IMG/VR virus record: IMGVR_UViG_3300020421_000063
Location: 1-38,780 of that record
Length of the DNA stretch: 38,780 nucleotides
Source: a virus
Direction: 5' to 3' (one strand)
The first letter of the stretch is position 1. Each line of letters starts with the position of its first letter. Under the pieces are notes generated by a model, which was not told the origin of the DNA, did not search any database, and saw only the letters and a list, made by a program, of their open reading frames with translations. A program made the translations under genes and the position numbers. This document shows positions 1 to 32,855 of this stretch, piece by piece.

Positions 1-3000
1 TTAACATATTTTTTTATTCTATTTCTATAAAAAGTAGCACCACCTGATGCAATAGCGAAACTATCAGCAAACTGTGTAGGTAAAAAACCTTTTCTAAGTA
101 TATAATTTAAAGCAGCTTTAGGTTTATTTGTTTGATCATGTACAGCATCTGCTATTTCAGCTTCAGCAACATTAAGTTTTATACCTTGACGCCTATCAAC
201 TAAATAATCTGAATTCATCAATTTACTAAAATCTTTCCAATACTGAGGTTGATTAGCAAAAGCTCTACCAGCAGCTAATGGATTATTTTCTTTAAAATTT
301 AAAAAGTTAGCAGCTGATATTGTTTGAAGAACAGCCGATCTAGTATTAAAGAACATGATAGCACCAGTAGAATTATTTATATAATCTAAAACTCTATTTT
401 CTAATGCACTACCTGAATCACTATTAAAAAATAATCTATTCTTACCTGCTTTTATTCTAGCTAATGAATTTTCTAAAGCTTCTCTATATTTAATACCAAA
501 TGCAGCTTCTAGTTTATTTAAATTTTTCTCGCTAAACATTATGTCTGCATTACTTATAAAAGGAGCTAAATATTGAGATCTTTTAGTGGTTTGTATGCTT
601 TTTATTAAATCACTAGTAATAGTACCAACTTCCCAGTTTCTACCAGGCTCAGCATAAGGAGTTCCTTTTCCTAATAAAATTAATTCTTCAGCATATGCCT
701 CTAACTTAGGATCGTTCTTAATAAAATTATCTAGTAATTTTAAATCAGATTTAGAAATATCAGGTATTGTCATTCCTTGTTTATTCCATATATAAACTCT
801 TATAGCTTGTTCTTTACTCCAAGGTTCGCCTTTTTCTATATTTTTTCTTAAATCTTTAGGTGATACTTTAAGTTGTTTCTTTAATGCTTTAAAGTTATTA
901 GCCATTGTAACTCTATCAGTAGCGAGATTTGCTTCAGCTTGAGCTAATGGTCTATAAAGATATTCATCATAAAACTTTTTTTGAGTTTCTCCAACTTTTC
1001 CTTTAGCAAGTGTTCTATACATTAAACCTTCAAAGTCTTGAGCTGATGATGCTAGTAATCTAATTTTACCGGACTTAGCCCCAACAACAGCAGCCTTAGC
1101 TTTACTGTATGTTTTTTCTTTACCAATACCTGTTTTTGCTTCTATTATTTCATTAAAAGCTAAATCTAAATCTCTTGAAGCATAACGTTCAATTAATTCT
1201 TCTTGGTTAGTTTTATCTTTTTCTTTTAGTTTTTCAAGTATCTCAGTGTTATTTAAATTTTTAACATCTATTCCTGCTTTATCAGCTATTCTTTTGTTTT
1301 CAACTTCAACTTTTTTAAATTCTTTAGAATTTTCAACAATTTGCTTAACTATAACACCTGTTGTACTTAGTTCATTTTCACTTAATCTTAATATTTCTTT
1401 AGCATTTACCTCTTTAGATATTTGTTCAGCAATACTAAAAGAACCTGTATCTCCAATAACAATTTGGTCTTTTGTTTTGTCACCTAAAAAAACTCTACCA
1501 TCTATAAAATCTCTTTTAGCAGATCCAGTTTTATCTTTTATACTCCTATCTTTTTCAGAAATAATAGCTTGTTCAGCGCTTGATACTATATTATTTACTC
1601 GTTTTTTAAGTGTTTCAGCATTAATCTTACCATCTACAAAAGCACGCATGTCCTTAATAACATTACTGTTTAATTGAAAAAACTCTAGTAAATGTTCATT
1701 ATGAAATCTTTTTGTTTTATTTTTAGTAGGCCCTGTTTCTCCTTTTAAAGCAAAAGAAGTAGTTACTATATTGTTTTTATTTATAGATTGAGCTTGATTA
1801 GTTAGAGGTTGAAGAGTATCAATTAAATTTTCTATTGTTTTTTTACTAGGATTTTTTATTATTTGATCAACATAACTTTGATAAACTCTAGCTAATATTT
1901 CTTTATTAATAGCTTGAGTTGCATTAATGTCTTCATTTTTAGCCATAAATTTTTCAACTAATTTTTTGGCTTCTTCTGGAGATTTTCCCTGGGATTCAAG
2001 TTTTTCAATATAGTTTTTAGTTCCAGAAACCTGAGAATAATACTTAGCTTCATTTAAGTTATTTTCATACTCTTTTCCTTGACCTTTTATACTACCAAAA
2101 ACCACTTCAATTAAATCACCTTTATCAACATTAGCGTTTTTATTTGGCGGAGCAATAATTTCTTTAATATTTAGCTTGGATTTTAATTCTTTTTCCCAAG
2201 CTTTATATGTCAAAGGCCTAGGTTTACCTTTACCATTGTCTATTAAAAACCTAGTATTACCACCTTCAACAGTGCTATAAATCATGCTTTGAACATCTGA
2301 TGGAAGATCTTTAAAAGTTAAACCTTTAGGTATAAGTGATTTTAATGTTAGTTTTTGAGTTTTTATCCAATCTGAACCACCAACAGTTTTTCCTTTTAAT
2401 TTTTTTAATCTAGTATCATAACCACCAACAGCTCTAACTTGAGCCCAACTAGTTTCGCCTTCTAAAAACTTTTCTTTAGCTTCACTAGTAGTTATATCAT
2501 ATTCTTTAGCAATGTCTTCAATTTTATATTTTTCAACTAACTTCGCTTCTTTTATAATGTTTGAATCTTTTCTAATTTTTTCTATAATCTCAAACTCTTC
2601 TAAATATTTTTCTTTTGCCTCATTATCTTTACGTAAAGCCATTAAACCAGCGGCAAGTCTTATTCTTTCTTTATTATAACCTTTAGGTAAAATTATATCT
2701 AATGAAGCTAAAAAATCTGATTTACCATCTGCTAATTGTTGATATAAAGCTATATCTTCTTCAGTTATACTTTTTCTTCTTGCAACACTATTTAAAGTAG
2801 ATTTAGCAGTTTCTCTTATTAAAGCATTAATTGCTGTAATTTGATTTCTTTTTGCTTTTGCTCCTTTGTTTGCACCAAATAATTCTAAAAATTTTTTCTC
2901 AACTTTAGGACTCCAAGGCGGTTTTATCTGTTCAGCTAAACCAGCTGTAGTACCTGTTTTAGCGTCAGCTCTTTTCCCTTTTTCATACAAATTTCTTATA

Positions 3001-6000
3001 ATAACAGGGGCTATTTTAGTAGAGGTTTTTAATCCTTGTGTTCTTTTTTTAACAGCATAAGGAAGCATGTCATATAGTTCCTTAGCATTTTCTCTTATAA
3101 ATTCTTTTTGAGAATCTATAACCTCTGTACTAGCTTTAAACGTTTTAGGTTTACCCTCAGGTGTTAATTGAGCTCCTCCGCCTTCTTTAAATCTAATCTT
3201 ACTACCGCCAGCAAATATTTTACTAACAGCATCTATTACTTCACTAGAAGGTACTAAATCAGAATAAGTTTTTTTAGATAAATCAATAGTTTCTATTTGT
3301 TTTTCTATAATATTCTCTAATATCTTTCCTTCTTTTTGATTTTCTTTAGTTAAAAAAGATATAGGCTCAATTACTTTTTCTTGTGTACTAAGTTTTTTCC
3401 TATTACCAATGCTAAGATCTAGATTTTCAAACTCACTTCCTTCTTCGCTTATTATATCTTTAACTTGTTTATCTTCAATAGTCTGAGTTTGTAATTTAGG
3501 GGCATATGTTTCTAATATATTCTTATATTCTAAAGGCAATATTTTATTCATATAAGCCCCAAATGGATATTGTACTTCTTTTTTAAGTTCCTTGTCATAA
3601 TATTTTTTAGAAGGATCATAAGTATTTGTTAATTTTACAAGTCTTTCAGCATAACCAGCAAGCCAGTCTTTAGGTTTAACTTGTTTTTCTATCTCTAATC
3701 CAATGTTTTGACCAGTTCTTACAGCTTGATTAGCCAACTTACGAGCTTTAAGTAGGTTTATTTCAACCAAGGCATCTTTATCAGCTTGACTTAAAACTTC
3801 TTTACCTTCAGTTATTTTACGATTTTTTTCTGCTAGTTCTTTATTTTGTTTAGAAATATTTTTTAACTCATCACCTAGTAATCTATCTTTAAAAATATCT
3901 AATGAACTCATGTTATCAGTATATTTTTCTGTAGTTTTATCAAATACTCTTTTACCATCATATACTAGGTTCTCTAGCATGCGTATCTGCTTACCAGAAC
4001 CAGCTTTACCTACATCACTACCTAACCTATCTAAAAATTGTAATAACTCAGTAGGTGTTTTAAATTCAATTTTCTGTCCTTCTAATGGTGTTCCTTTAAA
4101 TCTTCTTTCTATTATACTAGTTACTTTTTGTTTTAACTCTCCTAATATTGTACCTCTAGTTAAAGCTTGTCTAAACCTTGGTTCTTTTTGAAGCAACTCT
4201 ATTACATTACTTATGTATTCCTCAGGTCTTGTCTCTTTCTTCTGATCTCCGTATGTATCTTTAATAGCTTTTTTTAGATCAAAATTTTCTAATCCTTCTA
4301 GTTCTCTTACAGTTTTATTTATAGCCGGCTCTATAATGTTTCTTAAATTACCCATTGCTTCAGGTGAATTTAAACCTAAGTCTTTAGAAACAAAATGAAA
4401 CACCTCATGAGGTATCATTCCTTTTTTATACTTACTAGCGTCTATTATTATAAAAGGCTTACCATTAGGACCACTAGGCCTAAACTCAGCAGGTTTACCA
4501 CCCATATTCTCTCCATTTTCTCTTACTTCAAAATCAAATTCTTGCTTAGTTTCTTTTTTTAATCTGCTTTGTACACGTTGAAGTTCATTAGTTAATCTTA
4601 CGGCATTTAATTTAGGGTCCATGTTGGCTTGATCAGCTTGAATTTCCATTAATCCACTTTTAACATAACCAATAGCTTCCTCTAATTTTTTAATTTTTTC
4701 TTTATTTGTAGATATGCTTTTTTTACCATCAGGAGATACTTTTGTAGTGTAAGTTTCTTTTGCTAACTTTAACTCTTTTAATAATCCATTAACAACCTGT
4801 TCTCCTTTTCCTTGCAAAAGATTTATATCATATTTTTTTATTTTTGAAGCTCCAAAAGTAAAACCTGTTAAAAATTCTCCAAATAATTCTCTTCCTTTAC
4901 CTCCTTCATCCATAAATGGTACGTCAGAAAATTTTTCATCCATAAAAGTTTTAAAATCTTCTCCACCTATTAAATCATCAGCAGCTGCTTTTAAAAAAGA
5001 GCTGGCTTGAGACGCTGATGTAAATGAAATACCTGCTTGACCAGGTTTTAATACCACATTATTTAAAGGAGCATAAATACCTTTAAATTTACCACCTAAG
5101 ATTTTAGATAATTTTCCAAATTGATTACCCGCTATAGCAAAACCTGCACCAGTAACAGGATCATCAGTTACTACTCCCATAGTAAATGCTTCTTTAGCGG
5201 CGCCAATAGTTAATGCTTTAGTTCTACTAAGAAAAGTATTTGCTTTTGTATATGTTTTTTGTAACTTATTTAGTCCAGATAATGTGGCAAGTCCACCTGT
5301 TAATTGATTGGCTAAATAAAATTCTACACCAATTTTTGGAAGACTAAATAGTATCTCACCCGTCTCTTCGGCTAATGTTTTTTGAAAATTCTTAGCTTGT
5401 TGTTTTGTAGGTTTAATATTAGCATCCGACATTATATCCCTTATAACATCTAATCCTTCTGATTCTGTTGTTCCTATGTCAAATATATTAGCGTCAAAAC
5501 CTGCTATAAATCCACTAGTTCTTTCTATTGAAGCTGGATCTATATTTAAAAGATAGACATCTTCGTACGCTAATTTTTTAGCTTGATTTGATTCAGCTTG
5601 AGCAGCTAGAATATTAACATATTCACTCATAGACCCTTGAGAAATAATATCTTTATCTTTTTCAGATTCAGATACAGGGTTAATTTTATCAAAGTTACCA
5701 AATGTATCACTTTGAGAGTTAGCCAATGCAACCATATCTCTTAATAACACATCCTTATATACACCTTTTTCTTCTTTATACCCTCTTCTGCTTAATGCTA
5801 AAGACAATGGTTGATATACACCTTGTGGACCTTTAACATCAACATTATATTTCTCTGTATTAAGTTTGTTTTCAAAATTATATTTATCTACTTGAAATAT
5901 ATCAAAACTTTCTTGTAATGATGAAAAATCATTTGATTTTAAATCTGCTAATTGAGATTTTGTTAGTTTTACGTTTTCAGTTATATCAATGCTTTTTTCA

Positions 6001-7238
6001 GGTGCTTTATTACCTGATCTTGATACCGCAACCCCATCAACATATTCAAACCAAAACTTTGTGTTTTTACCTTTATATGATCTTGTTAATTCTTCTGCTT
6101 TTTTCTTAGCTTCTTCAACTTCATTTGCTATTTTAACAGCGTCAGCAGAATTTAATGTAGATGTTCCATCTTGTTGTTGTTGTTGTAATTGATAAAGAGA
6201 TGCCCAAGACCTTGCGACATCTTGTTTTTCATTATCAACTATAGACTTTATAGCCTCTCCTTTTAATAGCTCAGTTCTTTGTGAAGCATTAATATTATTA
6301 GATTCATCAAAACGTTGTATTGTTTTTCTTCCTTCTTCTAGCTCAAAAGCTTTTTCAATGTTTATAGTATTATTAACAACATTGTTAACAATTTTATCAA
6401 ATTGATAATCACTAACTCCATCTTGTTCTAAACTACTTTCAAAACTAAAACCTATACCTCCTTCATTTTTTCTAGTATTTGAATATCTATTTTTAATCTC
6501 ATCTCTTAAACCGTCTTTAAAGTCTTGAAATTTTTCCGGATCTTTTTGTAATAAGGTTATATTTTCTATAGAAGTATCTTGTAAATTATCAAAATCTCTC
6601 CAATCTTCTCTTTTCATTATATCCTCACCTATGCTTTCTACCATAGACCTAGAATCCTGTGAATTATTCCAAGTTTCATCATCTTTATTTTCACTTATAA
6701 AACTTTCTATTGCAAATACTCTATCTGAATTAAATTGTTTTTTTAACTCTTCTGATTCTTCCTTACTATTAGCTTGCCTTGTGTCTCTCCAAGTTGGACT
6801 ATCAAAACTTTCTGTTTCTCCATTAGGAGCTGTTATTTTAATTCTATTAGCTGAATAACCAAAACCAGCAGGGGCATAGGTTATTTCAAACCCATTATCT
6901 TCGTATGCGTTTTTAAATTCATCAACTATTTCTATATCTTTAAATCCAGATATGTCTTTGTTTATTTCAAACGGTGGTGATTCCAATAAAGTATCTACCG
7001 ATGCAGAATCCGTATCGGGTGTAATTTCCTCTACCACAGTCACACCCGGCCCTGTGGTTGTTATCTTTACTGGCTCATAATCGTTTTTAAAATCATCAAA
7101 TGAACCAACATAATCTTCGTTATCAGCTAGCTGAGTATATAAATTTTCATATTTATCTCCTCCATATTCTTTTTTAAATTGATTAAAATCACCTACGTAA
7201 TCACCAGCAGCAACTAATTTATCATATAGTTCTTTCAT
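1..7238 (-). CDS. Giant polyvalent-type internal virion protein with HExxH peptidase motif (partial, C-terminus beyond window)
   Basis: Reading from an ATG at 7238, the frame stays open to the left edge (at least 2412 residues, no stop), so the C-terminus is missing. Residues 3-54 hold two copies of a 29-residue repeat (LY...L....DYVG.F..F...Y). A Gln run lies near 6175-6190. A hydrophobic Gly-rich stretch falls at about residues 623-660. HEVFH at residues 944-948 is an HExxH zinc-peptidase motif, and PEEYISN with Glu1006/Glu1007 about 60 residues later could supply the third ligand of a gluzincin. Much of the rest is Lys/Glu-rich helical sequence. The region encoded at about 1-700 (with FFNTRSAVLQTIS and GGATFYRNRI) resembles the polyvalent-protein-associated domains of other phages, from memory. 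The start overlaps the upstream stop as ATGA, implying coupled translation. As the third gene after a 241-aa and a 555-aa protein it sits where T7 gp16 sits, so I infer an ejected internal virion protein. The open frame is certain; the function is not. Confidence 0.85.
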   Translation of the reverse strand, partial: MKELYDKLVAAGDYVGDFNQFKKEYGGDKYENLYTQLADNEDYVGSFDDFKNDYEPVKITTTGPGVTVVEEITPDTDSASVDTLLESPPFEINKDISGFKDIEIVDEFKNAYEDNGFEITYAPAGFGYSANRIKITAPNGETESFDSPTWRDTRQANSKEESEELKKQFNSDRVFAIESFISENKDDETWNNSQDSRSMVESIGEDIMKREDWRDFDNLQDTSIENITLLQKDPEKFQDFKDGLRDEIKNRYSNTRKNEGGIGFSFESSLEQDGVSDYQFDKIVNNVVNNTINIEKAFELEEGRKTIQRFDESNNINASQRTELLKGEAIKSIVDNEKQDVARSWASLYQLQQQQQDGTSTLNSADAVKIANEVEEAKKKAEELTRSYKGKNTKFWFEYVDGVAVSRSGNKAPEKSIDITENVKLTKSQLADLKSNDFSSLQESFDIFQVDKYNFENKLNTEKYNVDVKGPQGVYQPLSLALSRRGYKEEKGVYKDVLLRDMVALANSQSDTFGNFDKINPVSESEKDKDIISQGSMSEYVNILAAQAESNQAKKLAYEDVYLLNIDPASIERTSGFIAGFDANIFDIGTTESEGLDVIRDIMSDANIKPTKQQAKNFQKTLAEETGEILFSLPKIGVEFYLANQLTGGLATLSGLNKLQKTYTKANTFLSRTKALTIGAAKEAFTMGVVTDDPVTGAGFAIAGNQFGKLSKILGGKFKGIYAPLNNVVLKPGQAGISFTSASQASSFLKAAADDLIGGEDFKTFMDEKFSDVPFMDEGGKGRELFGEFLTGFTFGASKIKKYDINLLQGKGEQVVNGLLKELKLAKETYTTKVSPDGKKSISTNKEKIKKLEEAIGYVKSGLMEIQADQANMDPKLNAVRLTNELQRVQSRLKKETKQEFDFEVRENGENMGGKPAEFRPSGPNGKPFIIIDASKYKKGMIPHEVFHFVSKDLGLNSPEAMGNLRNIIEPAINKTVRELEGLENFDLKKAIKDTYGDQKKETRPEEYISNVIELLQKEPRFRQALTRGTILGELKQKVTSIIERRFKGTPLEGQKIEFKTPTELLQFLDRLGSDVGKAGSGKQIRMLENLVYDGKRVFDKTTEKYTDNMSSLDIFKDRLLGDELKNISKQNKELAEKNRKITEGKEVLSQADKDALVEINLLKARKLANQAVRTGQNIGLEIEKQVKPKDWLAGYAERLVKLTNTYDPSKKYYDKELKKEVQYPFGAYMNKILPLEYKNILETYAPKLQTQTIEDKQVKDIISEEGSEFENLDLSIGNRKKLSTQEKVIEPISFLTKENQKEGKILENIIEKQIETIDLSKKTYSDLVPSSEVIDAVSKIFAGGSKIRFKEGGGAQLTPEGKPKTFKASTEVIDSQKEFIRENAKELYDMLPYAVKKRTQGLKTSTKIAPVIIRNLYEKGKRADAKTGTTAGLAEQIKPPWSPKVEKKFLELFGANKGAKAKRNQITAINALIRETAKSTLNSVARRKSITEEDIALYQQLADGKSDFLASLDIILPKGYNKERIRLAAGLMALRKDNEAKEKYLEEFEIIEKIRKDSNIIKEAKLVEKYKIEDIAKEYDITTSEAKEKFLEGETSWAQVRAVGGYDTRLKKLKGKTVGGSDWIKTQKLTLKSLIPKGLTFKDLPSDVQSMIYSTVEGGNTRFLIDNGKGKPRPLTYKAWEKELKSKLNIKEIIAPPNKNANVDKGDLIEVVFGSIKGQGKEYENNLNEAKYYSQVSGTKNYIEKLESQGKSPEEAKKLVEKFMAKNEDINATQAINKEILARVYQSYVDQIIKNPSKKTIENLIDTLQPLTNQAQSINKNNIVTTSFALKGETGPTKNKTKRFHNEHLLEFFQLNSNVIKDMRAFVDGKINAETLKKRVNNIVSSAEQAIISEKDRSIKDKTGSAKRDFIDGRVFLGDKTKDQIVIGDTGSFSIAEQISKEVNAKEILRLSENELSTTGVIVKQIVENSKEFKKVEVENKRIADKAGIDVKNLNNTEILEKLKEKDKTNQEELIERYASRDLDLAFNEIIEAKTGIGKEKTYSKAKAAVVGAKSGKIRLLASSAQDFEGLMYRTLAKGKVGETQKKFYDEYLYRPLAQAEANLATDRVTMANNFKALKKQLKVSPKDLRKNIEKGEPWSKEQAIRVYIWNKQGMTIPDISKSDLKLLDNFIKNDPKLEAYAEELILLGKGTPYAEPGRNWEVGTITSDLIKSIQTTKRSQYLAPFISNADIMFSEKNLNKLEAAFGIKYREALENSLARIKAGKNRLFFNSDSGSALENRVLDYINNSTGAIMFFNTRSAVLQTISAANFLNFKENNPLAAGRAFANQPQYWKDFSKLMNSDYLVDRRQGIKLNVAEAEIADAVHDQTNKPKAALNYILRKGFLPTQFADSFAIASGGATFYRNRIKKYV

Positions 7239-8902
7239 GTATTGTTTTTTAGTTTTGGATCAAAGATTGGGTTGAGTATGTTGTATTTACCGGGTTCTTT
7301 TTCAGCACTAGTGTTTTTATTATTTTTAGCCATTTCTTTAAAAAAGTCAGTCATAGATCTTACTATTTTTGATTTATTATTTTTAGTAAGCCCGGAATAC
7401 TGTTTATTTACATAAGCCCGTGCAATTTGTTTCATTTGCTCAGGGTTATTTATGTTATATAAAGGCAGTTCTTTAGTATTTTGAATCATGGTTCCGTCGA
7501 CCATTTTAGGTACTCCAACATCATAAATCATCTTTATTTTATTACCATCTAGTGAGATCTCAGTAATTTTTTGATCTTGAATCTTTAATCCTAGGTCTGT
7601 GATAAAATTAAAGTCTTTTTTATCGTATGCATTAGTAAATATATTTTGAGTTGTTTCAGCTGCTTTTATTGGAGATTGATCTGCTGGAGGTGTTGGTTTT
7701 TTAGGTTTTTCATATCTTAACCCGTATTTTTTAGCCCTTGGATCTGTTATTTCACCAATTTCAGTATTTTGTATACCATCTTGACCAACATTAACAACTT
7801 TTTCTTTTATTTCATAGTTTCTAATTTTACTTTTGTAAAATTCAACCATTTTTTTTGTAAATTTTTCATGATCACTTTCAGCTATTGATCTACCTTCCAT
7901 TATTAAAGCTTCTTCATTACCAAAAACTTCTTGCCAAACCATTTGAGCTGCTTTAGGATCTTTTAAATACATATTTGCTTTTGCTGTAGCCCTACTCATA
8001 ACAGCATTAATTACTTTTTCAGTATCAACAGGGTATATATCAAAAATTTTTCTAGTCCCGTCTTTTTGAAGCTCATCAATTTGGTCTGATTCTTGTTTTA
8101 AATACTCAGGATTTATACTACCATCTTTAGCATATATACCCAAACCAGCCATACCAGAAGAACTAGTCTCATCCACGGGAGTATTTAAGTCATCAGTGAT
8201 GTCTTTTGTAACATTTGGTATAATACCAGGATCTTGATTAAAAGCAACTATAGCATCTACTGTATAACCGCCGGGAGTACCTGTAAATCCTCCACCAGTA
8301 TAATTCATCATCCATCTATTTGTTTCGGTGTTGAAAAATAGCTCTTGTTTACCAGGTTCTTCACCATCAACACTAGGTAAACCAGCAGTAATAGCCATAA
8401 AGTTATTGTAATTTTTATCTAATAAAGATTGCCCACCCTCGTCACCAGGATTAGCAGTATTTTTACCACTTAAACCAATATCCTTCATGTATGTTTCCTT
8501 AGCAGATTTAGTAAGCCCTATTATGTTACGTAAATCACCCATAGCACTTTGTAAAACAGCAAGCTTATTTAAAGCGTCTTGTTGTTCTTGTTTACCCCTT
8601 GCTTGTTTAACTTCTAATTGAACATTAGCCAGGTCGTTAATAAGTTTCGTTCCAGCTTCAAAATATGAGGGGTCATCCACGCCAGACTTACTAACAGCCA
8701 TAGCCCATTCACCATTGTGTTTTGTAATATAATTTAACTTATTGTCAATAAGTTTTCGTTCTCGTGCTACTTTTAAGTTTTTCTTTTCTGCACTTTTTTC
8801 TAAACCATACGTTATAGTTTTACCTAAGCCACTAATTGCATTAGCCCAAGCTTGACCAGAAGTTTTATCTATGTATGTTATTGGATTTTCGTATGCCCCC
8901 AT
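7235..8902 (-). CDS. Putative internal virion (ejection) protein, 555 aa
   Basis: The protein is 555 residues, hydrophilic and mostly helical in character, with no signal peptide, membrane segment or enzyme motif that I recognise. Its N-terminus (MGAYENPITYIDKTSGQAW) leads into a Lys-rich helical region with KSAEKKNLKVARERK near residue 40. A Pro-rich linker (KPKKPTPPADQSP) near residue 400 separates two parts. The stop overlaps the start of the giant downstream gene by four bases (ATGA), and the 241-aa gene ends 15 bases upstream. Position and size resemble T7 gp15, the middle member of the three ejected core proteins, but this is inferred from synteny and not from sequence similarity. It could instead be another tail-core component. 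Confidence 0.8.
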   Translation of the reverse strand: MGAYENPITYIDKTSGQAWANAISGLGKTITYGLEKSAEKKNLKVARERKLIDNKLNYITKHNGEWAMAVSKSGVDDPSYFEAGTKLINDLANVQLEVKQARGKQEQQDALNKLAVLQSAMGDLRNIIGLTKSAKETYMKDIGLSGKNTANPGDEGGQSLLDKNYNNFMAITAGLPSVDGEEPGKQELFFNTETNRWMMNYTGGGFTGTPGGYTVDAIVAFNQDPGIIPNVTKDITDDLNTPVDETSSSGMAGLGIYAKDGSINPEYLKQESDQIDELQKDGTRKIFDIYPVDTEKVINAVMSRATAKANMYLKDPKAAQMVWQEVFGNEEALIMEGRSIAESDHEKFTKKMVEFYKSKIRNYEIKEKVVNVGQDGIQNTEIGEITDPRAKKYGLRYEKPKKPTPPADQSPIKAAETTQNIFTNAYDKKDFNFITDLGLKIQDQKITEISLDGNKIKMIYDVGVPKMVDGTMIQNTKELPLYNINNPEQMKQIARAYVNKQYSGLTKNNKSKIVRSMTDFFKEMAKNNKNTSAEKEPGKYNILNPIFDPKLKNNT

Positions 8903-8917: not shown

Positions 8918-9643
8918 TTAACCAGCTTGCCCCAGCGCAGTACCAGCTATACTTCCAACAGCTCCAATACCAGAGCTTAAAATATTAGCTTTATCTGCTC
9001 TTGCTTGAGCAGCTTGTGCTTCAGCGCCTGAAACCATAGCTTGTTTTCTGTTTAGTTGTTGCATTTCTCTTTGCTCTCTTGTTTCAAATTCATAAGTTCT
9101 ACCCGACACATTAGCTTGTTGTAATCTACCTTGTTCACTCATTAAAGCACTTTGAACTCTTTGAGCTTCACTCATTTTTATTTGTTGTAAGTTTTGTTCT
9201 CCTTGTGCCCTTAATTTTTCATTTTGAGCTTCTTGTTGTTCTATACTAGCAGATACACCTTTTTTACTTTGCAATGCAGCTTGAGCTAAAGCAGTAGCAC
9301 CACCAGCTGATGCTCCTGTAGCTCTTAACGTGTCTAATGTATTAGCTAAAGCAATATCAGCTTCTTCAATAGCAATTTCAGCAGCACCAGTAGCAACACC
9401 TAGCGAAGCAAAGGGGTTACTAGCCATGCCGCTTAAATCTTTTATCATACCTGACAAGTCTTCTACTTGATCATACGGATTTATAACGTCTTGTCTGTTT
9501 TTTTCTAATTCTTCAAGTTCTCCCTGAAGTCGATCTGCTTTTGATTGAGCACGTCTTCCTTGTTTATCAGCTTGGTCCATACCATAAGCTGTTCCACCAA
9601 TTAAAGCTGCGCCTCCTATTGCTGCTACTACTCCAAATGCCAT
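8918..9643 (-). CDS. Putative small internal virion protein (gp14-like), 241 aa
   Basis: The N-terminus is a Gly/Ala-rich hydrophobic segment (residues 1-22, MAFGVVAAIGGAALIGGTAY). A long Gln/Glu/Arg/Ala-rich region of coiled-coil character follows (about residues 25-210). A second Gly/Ala hydrophobic segment closes the protein (about 220-241, ending GSIAGTALGQAG). Two amphipathic Gly-rich ends around a helical middle is the pattern of small ejected proteins such as T7 gp14, which forms the outer-membrane part of the DNA-ejection channel. It is followed directly by the 555-aa and giant genes, giving a gp14-gp15-gp16-like order. The similarity is in architecture only. Confidence 0.8.
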   Translation of the reverse strand: MAFGVVAAIGGAALIGGTAYGMDQADKQGRRAQSKADRLQGELEELEKNRQDVINPYDQVEDLSGMIKDLSGMASNPFASLGVATGAAEIAIEEADIALANTLDTLRATGASAGGATALAQAALQSKKGVSASIEQQEAQNEKLRAQGEQNLQQIKMSEAQRVQSALMSEQGRLQQANVSGRTYEFETREQREMQQLNRKQAMVSGAEAQAAQARADKANILSSGIGAVGSIAGTALGQAG

Positions 9644-10124: not shown

Positions 10125-11627
10125 TTAATATGATGATTCTACATAGTCAGATGAAACGGCAAATAATTCTTTCATACCTCCAAGATCTGTCGATTGGTCC
10201 GTAGATATGTGTACTAAAGCAAAATGACCTTTTATACCCGTCATAGGATTAGAAAAAGGAATAGTGTTATTCATATATATAACTTCTCCAGCGCTTGGTT
10301 GAGTCCAATTAGTTAAATTAGTCATATACTTGTTTTCTTTTCTTGAAAAACCTGCGTGATTTAAAGGGGGTATTAATGTTGAAGGATATTCATTTCCAAA
10401 ATTATCATATGAGCCTTCATTATAACTTAAAACAGATATTGATCTATAATTTACGCTTGTTGTTGTATCAAAAGTACCAATTTTGTAAGCGTTTACCGCA
10501 TTAGAACCCACTGGTAATTGAGGTTCTCCTACACTAGCAACACCAGTAATATCAGAATCAAAAGAAACGACTTGCCAACCATTGCTACCTTCATAGTTTA
10601 CTGTTTTAAAAACTTTAGACATACTGACCTTTGGATTAAACACAAATTGTATATCTGAAGAAAATTGTTCTCCATAAAATACTCCTCTTGTATTCGGTGT
10701 TTGACTATAGTGTTTATATAAACTTCCATTTTTTAAACTGAAAAAATCACTTTTAACACTAAAAGTTTGATCGGGCTTATAACTATAAAAACTAGTCCAT
10801 CCATTAACAGAGTCATCAAAAGAAGCAGTGTGATAAATTCCAAATACAGTATTTGTTTTAAAAGGCTGTAAAGATAATACGTATTGTTTAGAGTACATAT
10901 CCCAGCCGCCTACAGCTTTACCTACATTGAAGCTAGAACTATTAAGATTACTTAATTGATCTCTGAAGAAATCAATCATTCCATAATTAGATATTTCAGT
11001 TAAACCATCTTGCGATAATCTTAGTACCGCGTTTCTATCTTTATCAATAAAATATTTTCTTCTACCATAAACAGCAAAACTTTCAGGGTTTTTACTTATA
11101 CCATAATTACCAATAAACGGTTGTACAGCACCTATTACTAAATTAGAAGAAGTAACAGTACCTCCACCCTCTGCTGAGTATATAGCATCTTTATCTATTA
11201 ATGCTCTACTTACTTTAGCTTCTTGAAAAATAATTAAGTTTGTGTCTTCAGCATATAGTTTTTGTATAGAACCATTAGCGGGATCTACACTTTTTACTAT
11301 ATCATCGGCAACTGAAAACACGTTTGTATCGTTTATACCTGTCCTTGAGTTAAATATACCAGAATATATCATTGAATTAATTCTAATAGAAGAATTAGGT
11401 TGATCTTCAACTAAATAAGCTTTAGCACCTAAGGATGCTTGTGTGTTGTTATATCCTCCTCTTACTCTTGACTCTTCAATAGCCCAATTAAGATTTGATG
11501 TGTCGTCACTATTTGGCTGAGGAAAAGTATTATCTCCCCTAGACCCGTTCCACATAGGTAAGTCTGCTTGACTTAATGTCTTTCGTAAAACGAAGCTATT
11601 AAAAAATTTTACTTCTATTGCCGCCAT
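10125..11627 (-). CDS. Putative tail/neck structural protein, propeller-like, 500 aa
   Basis: The 500-residue protein is rich in aromatic residues, Ser, Asn and Gly and looks all-beta, with no membrane segment. The segment at about residues 170-225 (YGISKNPESFAVYGRRKYFI, then DKDRNAVLRLSQDGLTEIS) resembles blades of phage stabilisation proteins, in which a displayed value is tied to a 'file position' style beta-hairpin. It starts 37 bases after the 1467-aa gene, whose N-terminal part has similar blade-like strings. The two may form one tail assembly, or may be the halves of what is a single protein in other phages. A role at the tail stub is inferred from position. Confidence 0.75.
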   Translation of the reverse strand: MAAIEVKFFNSFVLRKTLSQADLPMWNGSRGDNTFPQPNSDDTSNLNWAIEESRVRGGYNNTQASLGAKAYLVEDQPNSSIRINSMIYSGIFNSRTGINDTNVFSVADDIVKSVDPANGSIQKLYAEDTNLIIFQEAKVSRALIDKDAIYSAEGGGTVTSSNLVIGAVQPFIGNYGISKNPESFAVYGRRKYFIDKDRNAVLRLSQDGLTEISNYGMIDFFRDQLSNLNSSSFNVGKAVGGWDMYSKQYVLSLQPFKTNTVFGIYHTASFDDSVNGWTSFYSYKPDQTFSVKSDFFSLKNGSLYKHYSQTPNTRGVFYGEQFSSDIQFVFNPKVSMSKVFKTVNYEGSNGWQVVSFDSDITGVASVGEPQLPVGSNAVNAYKIGTFDTTTSVNYRSISVLSYNEGSYDNFGNEYPSTLIPPLNHAGFSRKENKYMTNLTNWTQPSAGEVIYMNNTIPFSNPMTGIKGHFALVHISTDQSTDLGGMKELFAVSSDYVESSY

Positions 11628-11664
11628 ATTATATTATTACTTATTTATTTTATAAGTTCCATTA

Positions 11665-14600
11665 TTATTCTACGTTTGGTTCAGATGATCCCATAACTTT
11701 ATCACCATTAATTTCAAACTGAGCAGTCCATCTAGAATCAAAACTCGATGGATTTGTTAAACCAGATTTAGGTGCTGAATAATTAGTTCCATATTCAGTC
11801 ATTATACCTGGAGAGACTGGAGCATATGCATAAAAATAATTATTAGCAGAAGGTATCCACTGTGTAGTCATTTTTTCATCTGTATAGAACTTAGTAATAT
11901 ATTTACAAGCCCATTCAGCTGCATAAACAACAACATCCGCTGGACCATTAATAGATGTTTTAGTTTCAAAATCTAAATCTTTAGCTGCAGTTCTTGTAGA
12001 AGCACCAGCCTGTGTAATTCTGTATTGATAAGCTGTAGTTTGACCACCTAATTCTTCTCCATTAGAATAATAAAAATCTCCAAACGCTACAGATACTTTT
12101 AAATTTTCATCTTTACCAGTTACTGTATCATTAGGTATAGATTGAGAATAATTCCAAGCACCTTTACGTCTTGAGGTATTACCATAAATTTGTGTACTTC
12201 CTAATGCAGGACCTCCAACAAGTGAATCACTATTAACAGAATAAGGGTATGTTATAAATAGCCTATATTCTCCAAGCCTTGTGTTTTGCTTATAACCTTG
12301 ATCTGTACCAAAAACAAAAGTTTTTTGTATTTTACCACTTATAGGAGCAGATGTGGCTGTAGCTGTAGTTCCTTTTATAGTAGGACTAAAAGGTTGATCA
12401 ACCTGTAAAGCCATTATATCTTCACCATTACCAAAATTAGTACCTTGAGCTGGATAAATACTTGTGCCTGTTGAACTGTTTTGAATTATACCTGTAGTTT
12501 TGTAGTTGTAATATTTTGGATCTACATTAGGATCAGTAGGTGTAGGTATACCATCATATTGAGAATAAGCTAAACCTCCAAAACGTATAGGAGAACCCTC
12601 AACATCTGTAGCTGTAACCCAATTATCATTAGAGTTTGCCCTGTATTGTAATATAACAGGCCACCCTACAACTGGTGCTATTGGACCAGAAGGTGCGTAA
12701 GGTGTAGATTCATTATAATAAGGTTGTTGAGTAAATTCGCACTCTACTGTTATAAAAGCAGTCCCAGTGGTTAAAGCATTTGGTGTAATATTTGTTTTAA
12801 AATAATCAGGTCTATAATATGTGTTTTTATATTTATAATATTGAGAAGGTGAATATTTCTTAATTTCACCAATATTATTAGGATCACTGTAATATATTTC
12901 ACTATTACTTTCTACGGGTGTTGATTCAACCTTAGAAGATGACAAAGTTGATGTATTCCATGTGCTATCGCCAACTCCGTAGGGATCATTAAATGGAGAA
13001 GGTGTGTTAACGCTTGGTGTTACGGTTCCTGATTGCCAAAAAATTGAAGCAGATTCAGCTCCTGTAGATATAGTAACAGGACTTAACAAAACACTATTAC
13101 TTTGTCCAAAACCTTCATTTAAAGGCTCTGTACCAATTAATAGATTAAAAGTAATTACATTTTTTTCATTACCCGAATCTTCTACTTCTATTATACAAGA
13201 AATTGAACCATTTAATGTTCCGTTTGGTGATGTTAATTCACCTGTTTCTGGATTTAGTGATATATCAGTAACAACAGTTGTAGAATTTGTTAAAGTTGCT
13301 TTTTCTAAATTCCAAATTAAATCTTTATTATTTTGTAAAGTGTCACCACAGCCATTAACCGCTGTAAAAGTGGTAATATTAGTAGTGCCTAATGGTAACG
13401 TTAAACTTAATGGTGTTGTTGTAATTGTTGGCGCTATATTAGCTAAAGTACCACTTTTTACTATTATAAAAGAAGGTTTAGTTGCTATAGTGTTATCAAT
13501 AACCTCAAATCTAAACGTAAATTGGTTTAAGTTTAAATTAGTATCATAATATAATATTTTTTTTGGTTTCAACTTATAAAAAACAAATTGCCCTCCTGTT
13601 TGTGTTTCTAGATCCCAATAGTCTGTTACTGTATTACCATCTTGATCTGTAACACTCCATACATTAATGCTTGAATCTGTAACAGTCACAGGGTTTATTT
13701 GCCCTATAACTCTTACAGGGTAAAAATCTCCAGCTACAGAAGTTCCAATACCAGTAGCTTCTGTTTGTGTAAATTCAAAATCAACAAGATCATCTATTTG
13801 ATCTACTGCGCCTAAAGAAATATTTAAATCATTTATAGTACCAGACGTGGAACTTTCCCAAAAAATATCTAAAGCTGATTCTACAGGTTTTGTTTCATAA
13901 ACAGCCAATTTAGGTACCATATTAGCAGCACCAGTAGTGTTTAGTGTACCTATAGCTTCTAAAGTAGAAACTCTACCTATTATTGGATTAGTAGATATTT
14001 GATATAAATTAGCTTTTCCATCTGTATCTAAACCTGTTGTTGCATCAATAGACATGTCTAAATCTATAGCATTTGCAATAGTTGATACAGTATTAGTTTC
14101 TATACCAGGATAATATTGATTATTAGTAGTAGCTGTATTGTTATTTACTCTACCATACAACTGAACAGAACTTCTATATTGTTTTTGATCAGGACCTACT
14201 TCGCTTAAATCTCTAGGTATTTTATTTATATTATCATTTAATAATACAATATGTGCTGTTTTACCATCTTCATTTGTAGGAAAAGGATCAGGTGTTACTA
14301 ATGAACTTGGGTATCCGTTTAGTATACCAGGTAAATATGTGTTATAATAGTCTTGTTCTGTTTGTTTTACAACTATTTTATATGAGTACCAGCCTAATGG
14401 ATTATAATCGCTAGATGATATATCTCCATTATATAAACCTGGAGTACCTTGTTGTAAATCTTTAAAACTTTCAACTCTTTTGTTTAATAATACTTTTATA
14501 GAATCACCTGGCCATAAAGCACTATTTATATCTGTAGCTTTTCTATATGGATGATAATAAGTAGAACCACCAAAAATTAAACCACCTGAAGTTTTTATAA

Positions 14601-16068
14601 TATCATTTATAGATGATAATATAGTAGTAGAAGATCTTCCATATCTATCTGATAATATAAACCCTACTTGATAATTTCTATTTTGTTTAACAGTATGCTC
14701 AGGATATTCAACAATACTAGTATACCAAACAGCTGGATTAACACCAGATCCTGTTTCTGGACCTAAAAAATCTAATTTAGGACTAATTGCTACATCATAA
14801 TCTAATGACTCAGGTGGAGTATGTTTTGTTTGAAAATTACCATAAACAACTCTATTACTTATTATTTCTTGAGAAAAAGCCCGTACTGGAACTTTATCAT
14901 AAACCCTTGTTATTTCAGAGTCTGGAAGTGTTCTATAAGGTTTACGTGATTGATAATCATAATTATAATAAAGATTTGTAGACGGAGCGCTTGTAGTTCC
15001 TTGAAAATCATTTCTAAGTATTGTGTCTAATACCTTTACAGCTAAAGCATTTGATTCTTTATATACAATTTCTATTTCTTCTATGTTTAGATTGTTATAT
15101 AAAACACCCGCAGCGTATGGTAGTGGAATATTAAGTATAATATTATTAACTTTATTTTCCATAAAATTAACAATAGTACTTCTATAAGCAGCAGATTCAT
15201 CATCATCTATAAAATAACCATCTTGTTTAGGTATAAAACAATCTTGTGTAAAAGGTGCTAATATAGAATATTCACCATCTACAAATTTAAATCTATAACT
15301 AAATCTTACAAATTTATCTTCTAAAAAGTCTGGATCTCCAGGCCATTGAGGATTATAATAAGGGTTTTTTGTAGTGCCATCAGGAAGAAGCGCACTTGTT
15401 ACATCCTGCATAGAGGTAACAAATTTATCTTTATTTGGATTTACGTCGCCAATAGGAGTTGTGGCGGCTTCATCTTCGTAATATAAATTTATACATTGAT
15501 AAGGGTTATATTTAGCTACTGATATTTTATCTTCAGTTGTATAAAAAAGACCATTATTAGCTAAACTTATATTTATTTTTCGAGGTTGATTTCTGTTATC
15601 TGTCCAAAACAAAAGATTTTCTACTAAATTTACCCCATAAATAGGATTTTTTGTAGAAAAATTTAAAAAAGAACCTTCTACTAATTTAATAACTTGATTA
15701 GTATTAGTGTTATATGAATAAATAAAGTTATTAGCAGATTTATTATAAGTAAAGTTACCTATCGTGTTATCTGTATAATCAGTTAAAAATATATAAACAA
15801 TAGAATTTGAGTTATCAACATATGTACCTATTGAAGTTAAAGAACAACCACAGTTTGATAAAACACTAAAATCAACATTGTTAGGTGGTTGAGAGGCATC
15901 TAAAGCTATTTCATTACCCAACACATTTTCTAAAGCGCCTACGTCTTGACCCTCTGATTTGCTAACTTGTATGTTAAGTCCGTCTCTATATTCTCCTGAT
16001 GGTATTAATCTATCATCAAGATCTTTATTCATTTTAGACTTAATAAAAGCATTTTTAACTTCTGCCAT
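11665..16068 (-). CDS. Large tail/neck structural protein (stabilisation-protein-like), 1467 aa
   Basis: The N-terminus (MAEVKNAFIKSKMNKDLDDR, then LIPSGEYRDGLNIQ and a SEGQDVGALENVLGN string) is one I associate with a conserved family of phage head-tail stabilisation/tail proteins. The next roughly 450 residues are blade-like beta repeats (for example NPIYGVNLVENLLFWTDNRN). Residues about 830-1020 look like cadherin or Ig-like domains (NIAPTITTTPLSLTLPLGT, then LNPETGELTSPNGTL and IEVEDSGN). The C-terminal third is Tyr/Asn/Ser-rich and may face outward. No catalytic motif is visible. It follows the 411-aa connector gene by 5 bases and precedes the 500-aa tail gene. At 4.4 kb it is the largest complete gene here, which fits a short-tailed virion with a large decorated tail hub. 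Confidence 0.82.
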   Translation of the reverse strand: MAEVKNAFIKSKMNKDLDDRLIPSGEYRDGLNIQVSKSEGQDVGALENVLGNEIALDASQPPNNVDFSVLSNCGCSLTSIGTYVDNSNSIVYIFLTDYTDNTIGNFTYNKSANNFIYSYNTNTNQVIKLVEGSFLNFSTKNPIYGVNLVENLLFWTDNRNQPRKINISLANNGLFYTTEDKISVAKYNPYQCINLYYEDEAATTPIGDVNPNKDKFVTSMQDVTSALLPDGTTKNPYYNPQWPGDPDFLEDKFVRFSYRFKFVDGEYSILAPFTQDCFIPKQDGYFIDDDESAAYRSTIVNFMENKVNNIILNIPLPYAAGVLYNNLNIEEIEIVYKESNALAVKVLDTILRNDFQGTTSAPSTNLYYNYDYQSRKPYRTLPDSEITRVYDKVPVRAFSQEIISNRVVYGNFQTKHTPPESLDYDVAISPKLDFLGPETGSGVNPAVWYTSIVEYPEHTVKQNRNYQVGFILSDRYGRSSTTILSSINDIIKTSGGLIFGGSTYYHPYRKATDINSALWPGDSIKVLLNKRVESFKDLQQGTPGLYNGDISSSDYNPLGWYSYKIVVKQTEQDYYNTYLPGILNGYPSSLVTPDPFPTNEDGKTAHIVLLNDNINKIPRDLSEVGPDQKQYRSSVQLYGRVNNNTATTNNQYYPGIETNTVSTIANAIDLDMSIDATTGLDTDGKANLYQISTNPIIGRVSTLEAIGTLNTTGAANMVPKLAVYETKPVESALDIFWESSTSGTINDLNISLGAVDQIDDLVDFEFTQTEATGIGTSVAGDFYPVRVIGQINPVTVTDSSINVWSVTDQDGNTVTDYWDLETQTGGQFVFYKLKPKKILYYDTNLNLNQFTFRFEVIDNTIATKPSFIIVKSGTLANIAPTITTTPLSLTLPLGTTNITTFTAVNGCGDTLQNNKDLIWNLEKATLTNSTTVVTDISLNPETGELTSPNGTLNGSISCIIEVEDSGNEKNVITFNLLIGTEPLNEGFGQSNSVLLSPVTISTGAESASIFWQSGTVTPSVNTPSPFNDPYGVGDSTWNTSTLSSSKVESTPVESNSEIYYSDPNNIGEIKKYSPSQYYKYKNTYYRPDYFKTNITPNALTTGTAFITVECEFTQQPYYNESTPYAPSGPIAPVVGWPVILQYRANSNDNWVTATDVEGSPIRFGGLAYSQYDGIPTPTDPNVDPKYYNYKTTGIIQNSSTGTSIYPAQGTNFGNGEDIMALQVDQPFSPTIKGTTATATSAPISGKIQKTFVFGTDQGYKQNTRLGEYRLFITYPYSVNSDSLVGGPALGSTQIYGNTSRRKGAWNYSQSIPNDTVTGKDENLKVSVAFGDFYYSNGEELGGQTTAYQYRITQAGASTRTAAKDLDFETKTSINGPADVVVYAAEWACKYITKFYTDEKMTTQWIPSANNYFYAYAPVSPGIMTEYGTNYSAPKSGLTNPSSFDSRWTAQFEINGDKVMGSSEPNVE

Positions 16069-16073
16069 TTAAT

Positions 16074-17309
16074 TTAGTATTTTATCCATTTAGATTTACC
16101 TCGCATTATTTGAACAAACTCTTCAAGTTTAATATTAGATAATCTTATTTTGGCATTTCTTAATTTAGCACTTTTTTCTTTTTTTAGTCTTTGTATTACA
16201 TATTCAGGCTGATTAACTCTACTTGCTAAAATACCATATATTATATAAGAATATATAGCATCTTCAGCTAGTTTAGGTACTTTCATGTCTTGATCATAAC
16301 CTAATCCATCAGATATATATTCTAATAATATCAATTTATCAGCTAAATCACTAGAAAAAGACATTTTACCCTCTCTATCATTTATAGTAAACCATCCGTT
16401 AAATTGAGATATTTCAGGTTGTAATCCATATTGTTGGCCATAGAACATCTGCTCTCCCCATGCGCCATACCATCCATTAGCTACAATTAATCCTGTAGCG
16501 TCATTTTGTAATTCTTTTTGCCATTTATAATCGTTATTATCCCATCTTTCTTCTATTTGTGATGTACCTTCTAAATTTTGGCCAGTATCATCTTGTGTTG
16601 CGATACCTTGATTATCTTGTAAAGGAACATTATATGGATTAGAGGTAAGTGTAGTAGGATAAATTATATGTTTAACACCTTGTCCATCTATCCAAGACAC
16701 ATTAACGTAGTTAACATAATCTTGAGGTAGTGGTATGCTAAGACTTTTTGGGATTGTAAGTTCTTGTGAATGTATACTTTTTAATGTATCATAGCTAAAT
16801 TCTTGCAAAGCTCTTTTAGCATGAAACGCTACATCAGTTGTTTTTACATTAGGTATCAATTTACCAGCACCAACATAACCAACAAGAAAGTTAGCTATTA
16901 CATCTTTTATAGATATGTATTGATAACTACCATAATTTTTTTCTACAACATCTCCAGTAGCATCTTTATTACCAAAATTACCACCAAATTCATTTTTTAA
17001 TTGGACAGCAACAACAGTTCCTTGAGCCAAAACAACGTTTATAGTAATAACATTATCAACGACAGTATAAGGATTAACATACTCAGTATAAGTTCCAGGT
17101 CTTCCATTAGGACTAGTATATAACTTAAAATTATTTAAATTATAATCTTGTTCAGCTGGTGATGGTGCACCAAATATTAAATTAGTATTAAAAGTAGCTG
17201 TAAAAACAGTAGTACCTGTTATTGTTACTCCAGAAGCTATAAAAGTTTGTACTCCAGAATAATACTGGGCATTAGTTTCGGTTATTAACCCTCCATTAGG
17301 TGTTGACAT
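16074..17309 (-). CDS. Putative connector/ring or tail-tube protein, 411 aa
   Basis: Residues 1-125 are a Thr/Val-rich beta segment with no recognised motif. From about residue 130 the protein changes character: an amphipathic region (SIKDVIANFLVGYVGAGK) leads to RALQEFSYDTLKSI, QELTIPKSLSIPLPQDYVNY and VNVSWIDGQGVKHIIYPT. I associate that string with phage head-tail connector or tail-tube proteins of marine podoviruses. The C-terminus is Lys/Arg-rich and helical (RLKKEKSAKLRNAKIRLSN) and ends in SKWIKY. It starts 6 bases after the 242-aa protein ends, in a tightly packed head-tail joining block. The N-terminal domain could be an addition to the core fold. Confidence 0.75.
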   Translation of the reverse strand: MSTPNGGLITETNAQYYSGVQTFIASGVTITGTTVFTATFNTNLIFGAPSPAEQDYNLNNFKLYTSPNGRPGTYTEYVNPYTVVDNVITINVVLAQGTVVAVQLKNEFGGNFGNKDATGDVVEKNYGSYQYISIKDVIANFLVGYVGAGKLIPNVKTTDVAFHAKRALQEFSYDTLKSIHSQELTIPKSLSIPLPQDYVNYVNVSWIDGQGVKHIIYPTTLTSNPYNVPLQDNQGIATQDDTGQNLEGTSQIEERWDNNDYKWQKELQNDATGLIVANGWYGAWGEQMFYGQQYGLQPEISQFNGWFTINDREGKMSFSSDLADKLILLEYISDGLGYDQDMKVPKLAEDAIYSYIIYGILASRVNQPEYVIQRLKKEKSAKLRNAKIRLSNIKLEEFVQIMRGKSKWIKY

Positions 17310-17315
17310 GTGTTG

Positions 17316-18044
17316 TTAGCTTTTTGAGTTTACTTCATCCGCTTGAACTTGTTGTACTGCGGCTTGAACTACCTGCGGATCTCTTATTATTATTCCAGCA
17401 TATATTAATATGTTTAATATAACTTCTGTTTGCTCTGATTCATGTAGGTCAAATTGAACAGAGGTATTTTCTTGATAAATGTATTGACCTAAAGTACCTA
17501 CTGTAAATCCCCAATTTATATCATTTGGCTTTCTTACATAGTCTACTTGTATATTATCTTTTATTGTAGTAGGTTTTATAAATAATTTATTATTTTCATA
17601 TAAATATGCAGGTAAAGAAGTTGTAGGTTTTGTAAGTTGAGATTTTTCTGCTCTATAAAAATCAGTTCTATCAAGTCTTTGAACTAAAGTGTCAGAATTA
17701 AAAACCACTGATCCTAATCTATAAAATGAAACATTAACCCCATATATATCAGTAGTAGGTAATATAAAATATGAACCTGTACCTAGAGACGTTACATAAT
17801 TAGCATTACCAAATGTTTTAAAAATCGCTATTTTTTCATCAATATTTTCAACTCTATCAGCATAATCTGTATCTGCTTGAGGCACACGCAGTTGCTGATT
17901 TAAATCATCAAAGTATTTTTCAAATATTTCTAACTGCACCTGTGTTCCTATACTATTAAATTCCATAGGTGTCATATAACCCCTTTGTTCTTTGTTTAAT
18001 ATATATAAAACAGTTTGATATACTGTATTTACGTTTATAGCCAT
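17316..18044 (-). CDS. Putative head-tail connector (ring) protein, 242 aa
   Basis: The helical N-terminus (NTVYQTVLYILNKEQRGYMT, then PMEFNSIGTQVQLEIFEKYF) is followed by a beta region with PTTDIYGVNVSFYRLG and LYENNKLFIKPTTI. The C-terminal half has QFDLHESEQTEVILNILIYA and a Gln/Ala/Val-rich tail. This helix-barrel-helix layout and its place just after the capsid genes suit an adaptor bound to the portal. The leader contains a GGAGG/CCTCC hairpin and then an A/T-rich stretch before the ATG. It is the first gene after the head block. Assignment to a specific connector family would need a profile search. Confidence 0.75.
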   Translation of the reverse strand: MAINVNTVYQTVLYILNKEQRGYMTPMEFNSIGTQVQLEIFEKYFDDLNQQLRVPQADTDYADRVENIDEKIAIFKTFGNANYVTSLGTGSYFILPTTDIYGVNVSFYRLGSVVFNSDTLVQRLDRTDFYRAEKSQLTKPTTSLPAYLYENNKLFIKPTTIKDNIQVDYVRKPNDINWGFTVGTLGQYIYQENTSVQFDLHESEQTEVILNILIYAGIIIRDPQVVQAAVQQVQADEVNSKS

Positions 18045-18062
18045 TTGTTATTTTTATTATAA

Positions 18063-18086
18063 TAAAGGAGGCATTACACCTCCCTT
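18063..18086 (-). terminator. Weak hairpin after the 272-aa gene
   Basis: GGAGG at 18067-18071 pairs with CCTCC at 18079-18083 across a 7-base loop, with a few further A-T pairs after a bulge. The minus-strand sequence after it is T/A-rich (TTTATTATAAT) and not a pure T-run. It is a weak terminator or a leader structure of the 242-aa gene. Confidence 0.45.
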
Positions 18087-18100
18087 ATTAATATTACATA

Positions 18101-18919: not shown

Positions 18920-18942
18920 AATATAATATAATTAAATAGTTT

Positions 18943-18985
18943 AAAAAAAGTAAAGCTGGGGCAAATTAATGCCCCATAACTTTAC
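18943..18985 (-). terminator. Intrinsic terminator after the major capsid gene
   Basis: Read on the minus strand, GTAAAG then TGGGGCA, a short loop, TGCCCC and CTTTAC form a two-part stem (outer GTAAAG/CTTTAC, inner GGGGCA/TGCCCC). Seven T residues follow. It begins 10 bases past the capsid stop codon and precedes the 272-aa gene. This is the strongest hairpin I found in the window. Confidence 0.85.
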
Positions 18986-18994
18986 AAATAATTA

Positions 18995-20503: not shown

Positions 20504-20522
20504 AATTTCTTTTTATTAATTT

Positions 20523-21776: not shown

Positions 21777-21803
21777 AATATAATATAATATAAATTAATA
21801 ATT

Positions 21804-32598: not shown

Positions 32599-32855
32599 AA
32601 TACAACTACGACATCTTGTAGTTTTATAACAGTATATTTTTCTTTATCAAACTCCACACCGTGACCAGCGTGTTTGTCATAATAAATTACATCGTCTTTT
32701 TTTAAACCTTTTATATCATCACTTATTGAAAAAATAATAGCTTTTTTATACCTTATATCTTCTCTATCTTTTTCTATAAGTAATAAACCACCTTTACTTT
32801 TATCTGTAGTAATTTTTTCAGGTTTTATTATAATATTATTACCTATCGCTTTCAT
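32595..32855 (-). CDS. groES: Phage co-chaperonin GroES (Cpn10)
   Basis: The 86-residue protein begins MKAIGNNIIIKPEKITTDKS, with the strand of the Cpn10 core. The mobile-loop region contains KGGLLL (Gly22-Leu26), the equivalent of the GGIVL tripeptide with which GroES docks on GroEL. KKDDVIYYDKHAGHGVEFDK, then EKYTVIKLQDVVVVL, give the GD-type turn and the C-terminal strand. The roof hairpin (KHAGHGVEF) is His-rich. The start lies within the groEL gene (17-base overlap), so the order is groEL then groES. The family is clear; the native partner is inferred to be the phage GroEL. Confidence 0.93.
   Translation of the reverse strand: MKAIGNNIIIKPEKITTDKSKGGLLLIEKDREDIRYKKAIIFSISDDIKGLKKDDVIYYDKHAGHGVEFDKEKYTVIKLQDVVVVL

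Follow-up and report, generated by a model that had tools for sequence, protein, structure and literature searches.

Genes at the locus

The window, by which we mean the whole stretch of DNA analysed here, is a linear virus record of 38,780 bases from IMG/VR, and its left end is occupied by a giant gene, P0001 (3..7238, minus strand), which begins with an ATG and shows 2412 codons before its 3' end passes beyond the record. No stop codon interrupts the minus-strand frame from 7238 up to position 3 at the left edge, which confirms the reading of the earlier note, and because the record is linear and the frame is still open there, P0001 is truncated at the end of the record. Complete relatives continue for about 285 aa past the point equivalent to aa 2412 of P0001 (residue 2082 of 2367 in relative L008, 2911 of 3198 in L033), so that the full protein would comprise about 2,700 aa. 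Its first 54 residues (7077..7238, minus strand) contain short repeats (DYVGDFNQFKKEY / DYVGSFDDFKNDY) that are present in L008 too, and residues 1-109 match L008 in BLAST at 41%. P0001 found nothing above cut-off in Pfam and PHROGs (the best sub-threshold family match is Phage_int_SAM_5 at aa 1838-1894) and zero matches among named phages in tblastn. Neither Pfam nor PHROG matched an RNA polymerase domain in P0001, a protein whose 3' end is missing and whose regions are divergent. A frame-shifted query from the middle region (window 1538-4721) found zero relatives and is little informative. A transmembrane reading of P0001 was rejected, as a Kyte-Doolittle scan gave zero segments.

The giant gene lies among late and virion genes. 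A structural module on the same strand (10125..26436) encodes muzzle-, ring/adaptor- and major capsid-type proteins, the portal and the large terminase (phrog_14478, 13977, 14543, 13704, 6547 and 6681); PHROG gives the terminase, the portal and several virion proteins, and the capsid-, ring- and muzzle-type labels are read from a crassvirus-like gene order. Two further minus-strand genes, both without a PHROG match, are found between this module and P0001. The first (8918..9643) encodes 241 aa with a Gly/Ala-rich hydrophobic N-terminus and, judged by this sequence and by its similar place in relatives, is a probable small ejection protein. The second (7235..8902) encodes 555 aa, overlaps the start of the giant gene and, by its position and the similar place and size of its counterparts in relatives, is a probable middle-sized ejection protein. 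In the window and four inspected relatives the gene order is the same: a muzzle-type gene, a gene of about 430-500 aa, in some phages one or more small variable genes, a gene of 232-257 aa, one of 527-686 aa, and the giant. The slot between the muzzle-type and ejection genes (9649-10119, minus strand) is variable: here it holds a small cupin-looking gene, in L006, L008 and L119 a member of another family, 136 aa long.

A small-medium-giant order is likewise seen in phage N4, with gp52 (16.5 kDa), gp51 (66 kDa) and the virion RNA polymerase gp50, and gp14, gp15 and gp16 of T7 are ordered alike. The match with N4 is our main argument that the giant would be ejected into the host. The N4 polymerase (vRNAP) is expelled together with two further ejection proteins (PMC12633501). 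By analogy, we consider it very probable that P0001 is a polyvalent protein that is ejected and contains a zincin.

The terminase of the window is closest to that of Podoviridae sp. ctfjg026 (64%), followed by Elemovirus phages of Flavobacterium (45%); further relatives are Maribacter phage Panino and the Cellulophaga and Tenacibaculum phages of Pachyviridae and Pervagoviridae. A prophage search for the host returned just MAG contigs, whose labels vary and include Flavobacteriaceae and Cryomorphaceae. Because the isolate relatives of the terminase infect such bacteria, we infer a marine, short-tailed phage (podovirus) with a flavobacterium-like host, the prophage labels being mixed. The window also encodes a protein that is GroEL-like chaperonin by sequence (32839-34410, minus strand), and Elemovirus and Panino annotate both GroEL and GroES.

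Architecture of the giant-protein family

A search of viral contigs with P0001 yields 62 relatives, for the most part via a conserved C-terminal module that spans aa ~1998-2412 (3..1247, minus strand) and continues past the edge of the record. This module alone was confirmed by tblastn at 532 IMG/VR loci at least, 80 of which were kept. The earlier note had suggested looking for polyvalent-associated domains at this end of the protein; the C-terminal module has no Pfam or PDB sequence match.

Among the giants that bear the zincin domain, 103 of 112 are complete at both ends and measure 2056-3432 aa (median 2611). In the giants the median position of the first zinc histidine is aa 850; a variable stretch with a median of 949 aa comes next, and then the C-terminal module. 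The position of the zincin is constant, while the 950 or so residues that follow it differ between giants and hold cassettes. One of these is marked by DFDDT, a HAD-type phosphatase-like motif that a simple pattern detects ahead of the C-terminal module in 67 of the 112 giants (e.g. L033). PHROG matches to polynucleotide kinase occur in 16 of 53, and a Zeta-toxin/AAA_33 kinase in one relative; a virion-borne cassette for the repair of RNA or DNA ends in the middle of the giants is conceivable. The family consists of large polypeptides that join unrelated domains, namely the zincin, a sigma-like module, HAD-type and kinase cassettes and the C-terminal module; in P0001 itself, the zincin is the only secure domain. 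Both this architecture and the position of the gene fit the polyvalent-protein idea of the earlier note, in which one phage protein carries several effector domains into the host, and support it.

The closest named relative (MW202828.1 741-12320, minus strand; L070) encodes a giant of 3859 aa labelled 'reticulocyte binding/rhoptry protein', in which HEFGH occurs twice and the C-terminal module is missing. Many divergent giants (e.g. L006, L012, L115 and L033) begin with a short module like Y-x-G-x-x-Y-[ST]-L-E-E-x-x-x-A-A-x-x-x-x-L, which has the look of a tag for packaging or ejection that is swapped between them.

The predicted zinc site

A plausible gluzincin site had been proposed in the earlier note from the motifs HEVFH and PEEYISN, and comparison across the family upholds it. 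HEVFH (aa 944-948; 4395..4409, minus strand) is the sole HExxH in the visible 2412 residues of P0001 and would provide the zinc ligands H944 and H948 and the general base E945. PEEYISN occupies aa 1005-1011, with glutamates at 1006 and 1007. The latter (4218..4220, minus strand) is the predicted third zinc ligand: it forms an invariant column in alignments A1 and A3 and is kept in 112 of 112 aligned domains, as opposed to position 1006 with Glu in 74 and Asp in 24, and for this reason E1007 and not E1006 is the ligand-like glutamate. E945 and H948 are equally invariant in all 112 domains, H944 is found in 103, and the complete four-residue gluzincin site is present in 103 of the 112.

Among 114 unique long relatives, which were selected via the separate C-terminal module and independently of HExxH, the motif is present in 103 (0.92 observed versus 0.0026 expected per giant from composition). 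The quartet H944/E945/H948/E1007 furthermore constitutes the sole invariant columns among 90 domains, many of them just 16-20% identical to the first, in a set that was itself chosen for HExxH, the glutamate having played no part in the choice. As far as conserved residues can tell, the metal site is of the gluzincin type, i.e. HExxH and a Glu about 60 residues on, with the metal presumably bound at H944, H948 and E1007.

The first zinc histidine is lost in two lineages, two changes being needed on a domain tree that kept the columns of the trait itself, which is a small weakness. One lineage is a clade of eight members (L003, L023, L060, L075, L090, L094, L095 and L128) with EEL[FS]H instead of HExxH; the other is L115, which has QEVGH and groups with L062, P0001 and L146. 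Since all nine retain E945, H948 and E1007, the site was altered and has not simply decayed, and in the EEL[FS]H clade the metal or the function may have changed. The loss of zinc-site residues in close homologues, which according to the earlier note would speak against the proposal, concerns H944, nearby L115 included, and leaves the other three residues untouched. Because two lineages have lost the first histidine, one of them in P0001's own branch, a universally active protease is disfavoured.

Predicted fold of the internal domain

Alignments A1 and A3, the modelled fold of L119 and its fold matches place a putative zincin (gluzincin) domain at aa 866-1093 of P0001 (3960..4643, minus strand). 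The AlphaFold model of P0001's own domain is weak (pLDDT 61.6, core 75-85), and a fold search with it gave no PDB zincin and helical noise instead. For this reason the assignment leans on L119, a relative in P0001's alignment and a central member of the family, whose domain was modelled from 90 sequences with a pLDDT of 92.0 and a pTM of 0.90. This model has strands at 19-24, 48-52 and 59-64, the HExxH in helix 76-85 and E139 in helix 133-150, which together make up the three-strand, two-helix core of zincins. The zincin fold suspected around HEVFH is accordingly predicted for the family by way of L119, and was not recovered from P0001's own segment.

In VIA-align the best matches of the L119 model are lethal-factor-type zincins (Z 6-7), ahead of YbeY (5.1), IrrE (4.8), Spartan (4.6), ArdC (4.4) and N4 gp50 (3.3), where values under 8 may mean a common arrangement and most of the top rows are HExxH-type metalloproteins. 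Viral fold matches comprise 'structural proteins' of Gundel_1 and phi17:2 as well as LPD and ART-PolyVal proteins. For the zincin domain no Pfam or NCBIfam model exceeds its cut-off; the sub-threshold Pfam list is headed by zincin families (M78 in 16 of 90 domains, SprT in 6, DUF3267 in 6, DUF6782 in 4 and M90 in 3), and a PDB sequence search with zincin profiles gave weak zincin-like matches alone (aureolysin, E 0.15; small zinc proteases, E 1.2). Taken by itself, P0001 has no zincin match in Pfam or PHROG, as would be expected if HEVFH had arisen by chance within a helical structural protein; the excess of HExxH over expectation, the invariant quartet and the confident zincin fold of L119 refute this explanation, to which we attach practically no probability.

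Comparison with known zincins

Zincin metallopeptidases occur in about 36% of polyvalent proteins and are their commonest domain (Iyer et al. 2017, PMC5512222). Like the polyvalent MPTase described there, the domain of the P0001 family would combine a three-strand sheet, an HExxH helix and a later helix with the third-ligand Glu, and it is part of giant phage proteins with several domains whose genes lie among the late ones. Unlike it, the P0001 family forms a clade of its own, with the sigma-like module behind the zincin and the conserved C-terminal module. At E 10 the corresponding Pfam model, PF18818 (MPTase-PolyVal), matched nothing in the window, in L119 or L008, or in the Elemovirus records; N4 is not matched by it either.

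The nearest structural neighbours, the lethal-factor-type zincins (ATLF family), align over 142-179 residues, but with an rmsd of 4.2-5.1, an identity of 10-14% and a Pfam match far below cut-off; the likeness is one of shared fold, not of membership. That effector proteases are among the nearest solved folds speaks for an alternative, in line with the earlier note, in which the zincin would be a host-directed effector, delivered with the DNA and cleaving host defence, stress or transcription factors for takeover. Iyer et al. suggest polyvalent MPTases as possible effectors of this kind (PMC5512222), and relatives of the zincin-bearing giant carry other enzymatic cassettes. Against this stand the fixed place of the zincin with the same conserved module behind it, which suits an internal role, and the two lineages in which one zinc ligand has disappeared. 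We consider a host-directed effector doubtful, if worth keeping in mind.

The ejected vRNAP of N4 bears an HExxH in its C1 domain (gp50 residues 2124-2375; PMC12633501). As in the P0001 family, the giant is the last of a small-medium-giant ejection trio, and the HExxH domain is followed by a large helical region; the difference lies in the RNA polymerase domain of gp50, which Pfam and PHROG did not find in P0001. Profile similarity links the two domains: hhalign of the zincin domain against nine Schitoviridae C1 domains (N4, the only one found in viral contigs, and eight more from named Schitoviridae) gave a probability of 85 and a score of 44.3 over 61 columns, above all of 200 motif-keeping shuffled controls (best 39.6). 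This similarity would suit a structural zincin that binds metal or folds in the DNA conduit and cuts no peptide, comparable to the C1 domain of vRNAP, for which we found no reported cleavage. Moreover, N4 vRNAP is packaged unprocessed (PMC5512222), and the retention of E945, H948 and E1007 in the His-to-Glu clade points to conservation beyond the canonical zinc triad. However, the fold resembles that of N4 C1 weakly (Z 3.3, rmsd 7.1), and a complete gluzincin quartet in 103 of 112 domains is the outcome to be expected from selection for catalysis, so that a purely structural role seems rather improbable to us. The possibility of a hydroxylase (alphaKG-HExxH, which PMC12633501 cites for N4) was set aside, as the third ligand is predicted to be a Glu in a zincin fold.

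Among cultured phages, gp18 of Elemovirus (Flavobacterium phage elemo; 3694 aa), for which 'structural protein' is the annotation, sits after the muzzle and ejection genes as P0001 does and has the zincin of the P0001 family (A1 profile, domain E 9e-9; HEIFH at 1543); unlike P0001, it lacks the conserved C-terminal module and has a DUF3293 domain. The cargo of Crassvirales (phiCrAss001 gp45-gp50, PMC10172136) resembles our case in its capsid-stored giant and mid-size virion proteins and in a muzzle-bearing set of virion genes, but these giants are RNA polymerase-associated, and PMC10172136 mentions no protease.

The earlier note had presented a protease delivered with the DNA as something new in the early takeover by this phage group. 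The kind itself is not new, because polyvalent proteins carry zincins more often than any other domain (PMC5512222), and the N4 protein has its HExxH (PMC12633501): the zincin of P0001 belongs to the broad polyvalent-zincin kind and introduces no new principle, yet it is a clade of its own that no Pfam, NCBIfam or PHROG model covers. For this phage group we found no report of such a zincin, and the relatives are annotated as 'structural protein' or under unrelated names.

A module possibly resembling sigma-70 region 2

Some 200-300 aa after the HExxH lies a conserved module with a consensus like DEIxTGxxGIxDLIxxYdPxxxVPLAAYINxxLPxR, which in P0001 corresponds to aa ~1165-1250 (about 1144-1303; window 3489..3746, about 3330-3809, minus strand). 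Profile comparisons at the family level are no more than suggestive of a resemblance to sigma-70 region 2. The A6 profile has 19 PDB matches at E 10 (best 0.0012), most of which belong to various types of RNA polymerase sigma factor, and the A7 profile, built from separate members and partly overlapping A6, again has a sigma factor as its best match (E 0.021). Sigma families are on top of the PHROG matches, and in a reverse search with a sigma profile 17 of 31 hits fall on the module, more than elsewhere. On the other hand, hhalign of the module against sigma gave a probability of 4%, barely above shuffles, and the closest 18 rows were beaten by a shuffle; a first comparison with five ECF-type sigmas did not exceed its shuffles, and P0001's own module segment alone has no sigma match.

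If the resemblance holds, it bears on how transcription could start in such phages without an injected polymerase. The giant might then be an ejected starter kit for transcription: its sigma-like module, carried in with the DNA and cut loose by the zincin, would guide the RNA polymerase of the host to the earliest promoters of the phage. We regard this as unlikely; if true, it would set a virion-delivered sigma-like factor beside the virion-delivered polymerases of N4 and the crassviruses.

Proposed mode of action

We lean, with slightly better than even confidence, towards a polyvalent ejection protein with an internal gluzincin that most likely acts in cis. The capsid would hold the giant together with the 241-aa and 555-aa proteins, and the giant would be driven into the cell before the DNA or along with it. 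H944, H948 and E1007 would hold a zinc ion and E945 would activate a water molecule, enabling the zincin to cut the chain of the giant or the two ejection proteins that accompany it, either during assembly or just after entry, and the cutting would release the variable cassettes behind it. Cis processing, unprocessed packaging and host attack are all discussed by Iyer et al. for polyvalent proteins, the first with DdrB of phage P1 and the second with N4 (PMC5512222). We favour cis processing over host attack, because a zincin that keeps its place while the cassettes behind it vary is best explained by release or trimming in cis. By analogy, the unprocessed packaging of the HExxH-bearing N4 vRNAP (PMC5512222) would argue against cis processing; no cleavage site was identified.

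A predicted active site and fold can now be named for the largest protein of a widespread, mostly uncultured family of marine phages, of which at least 532 IMG/VR loci encode a relative and whose giants are otherwise without useful functional annotation. With the first histidine naturally lost in two lineages, active and altered sites can be compared within the family, and the presence of the zincin in the cultured Elemovirus, whose laboratory host is Flavobacterium sp. BAL314, makes laboratory testing possible.

Small proteins with an HExxH were observed apart from the giants. The window encodes a separate protein of 101 aa (29167-29472, minus strand) with an HExxH of its own (IEHEKIH), which matches the unknown-function PHROGs 10499 and 16532, and a similar small HEEGH protein is encoded in L062 (19358-19726).
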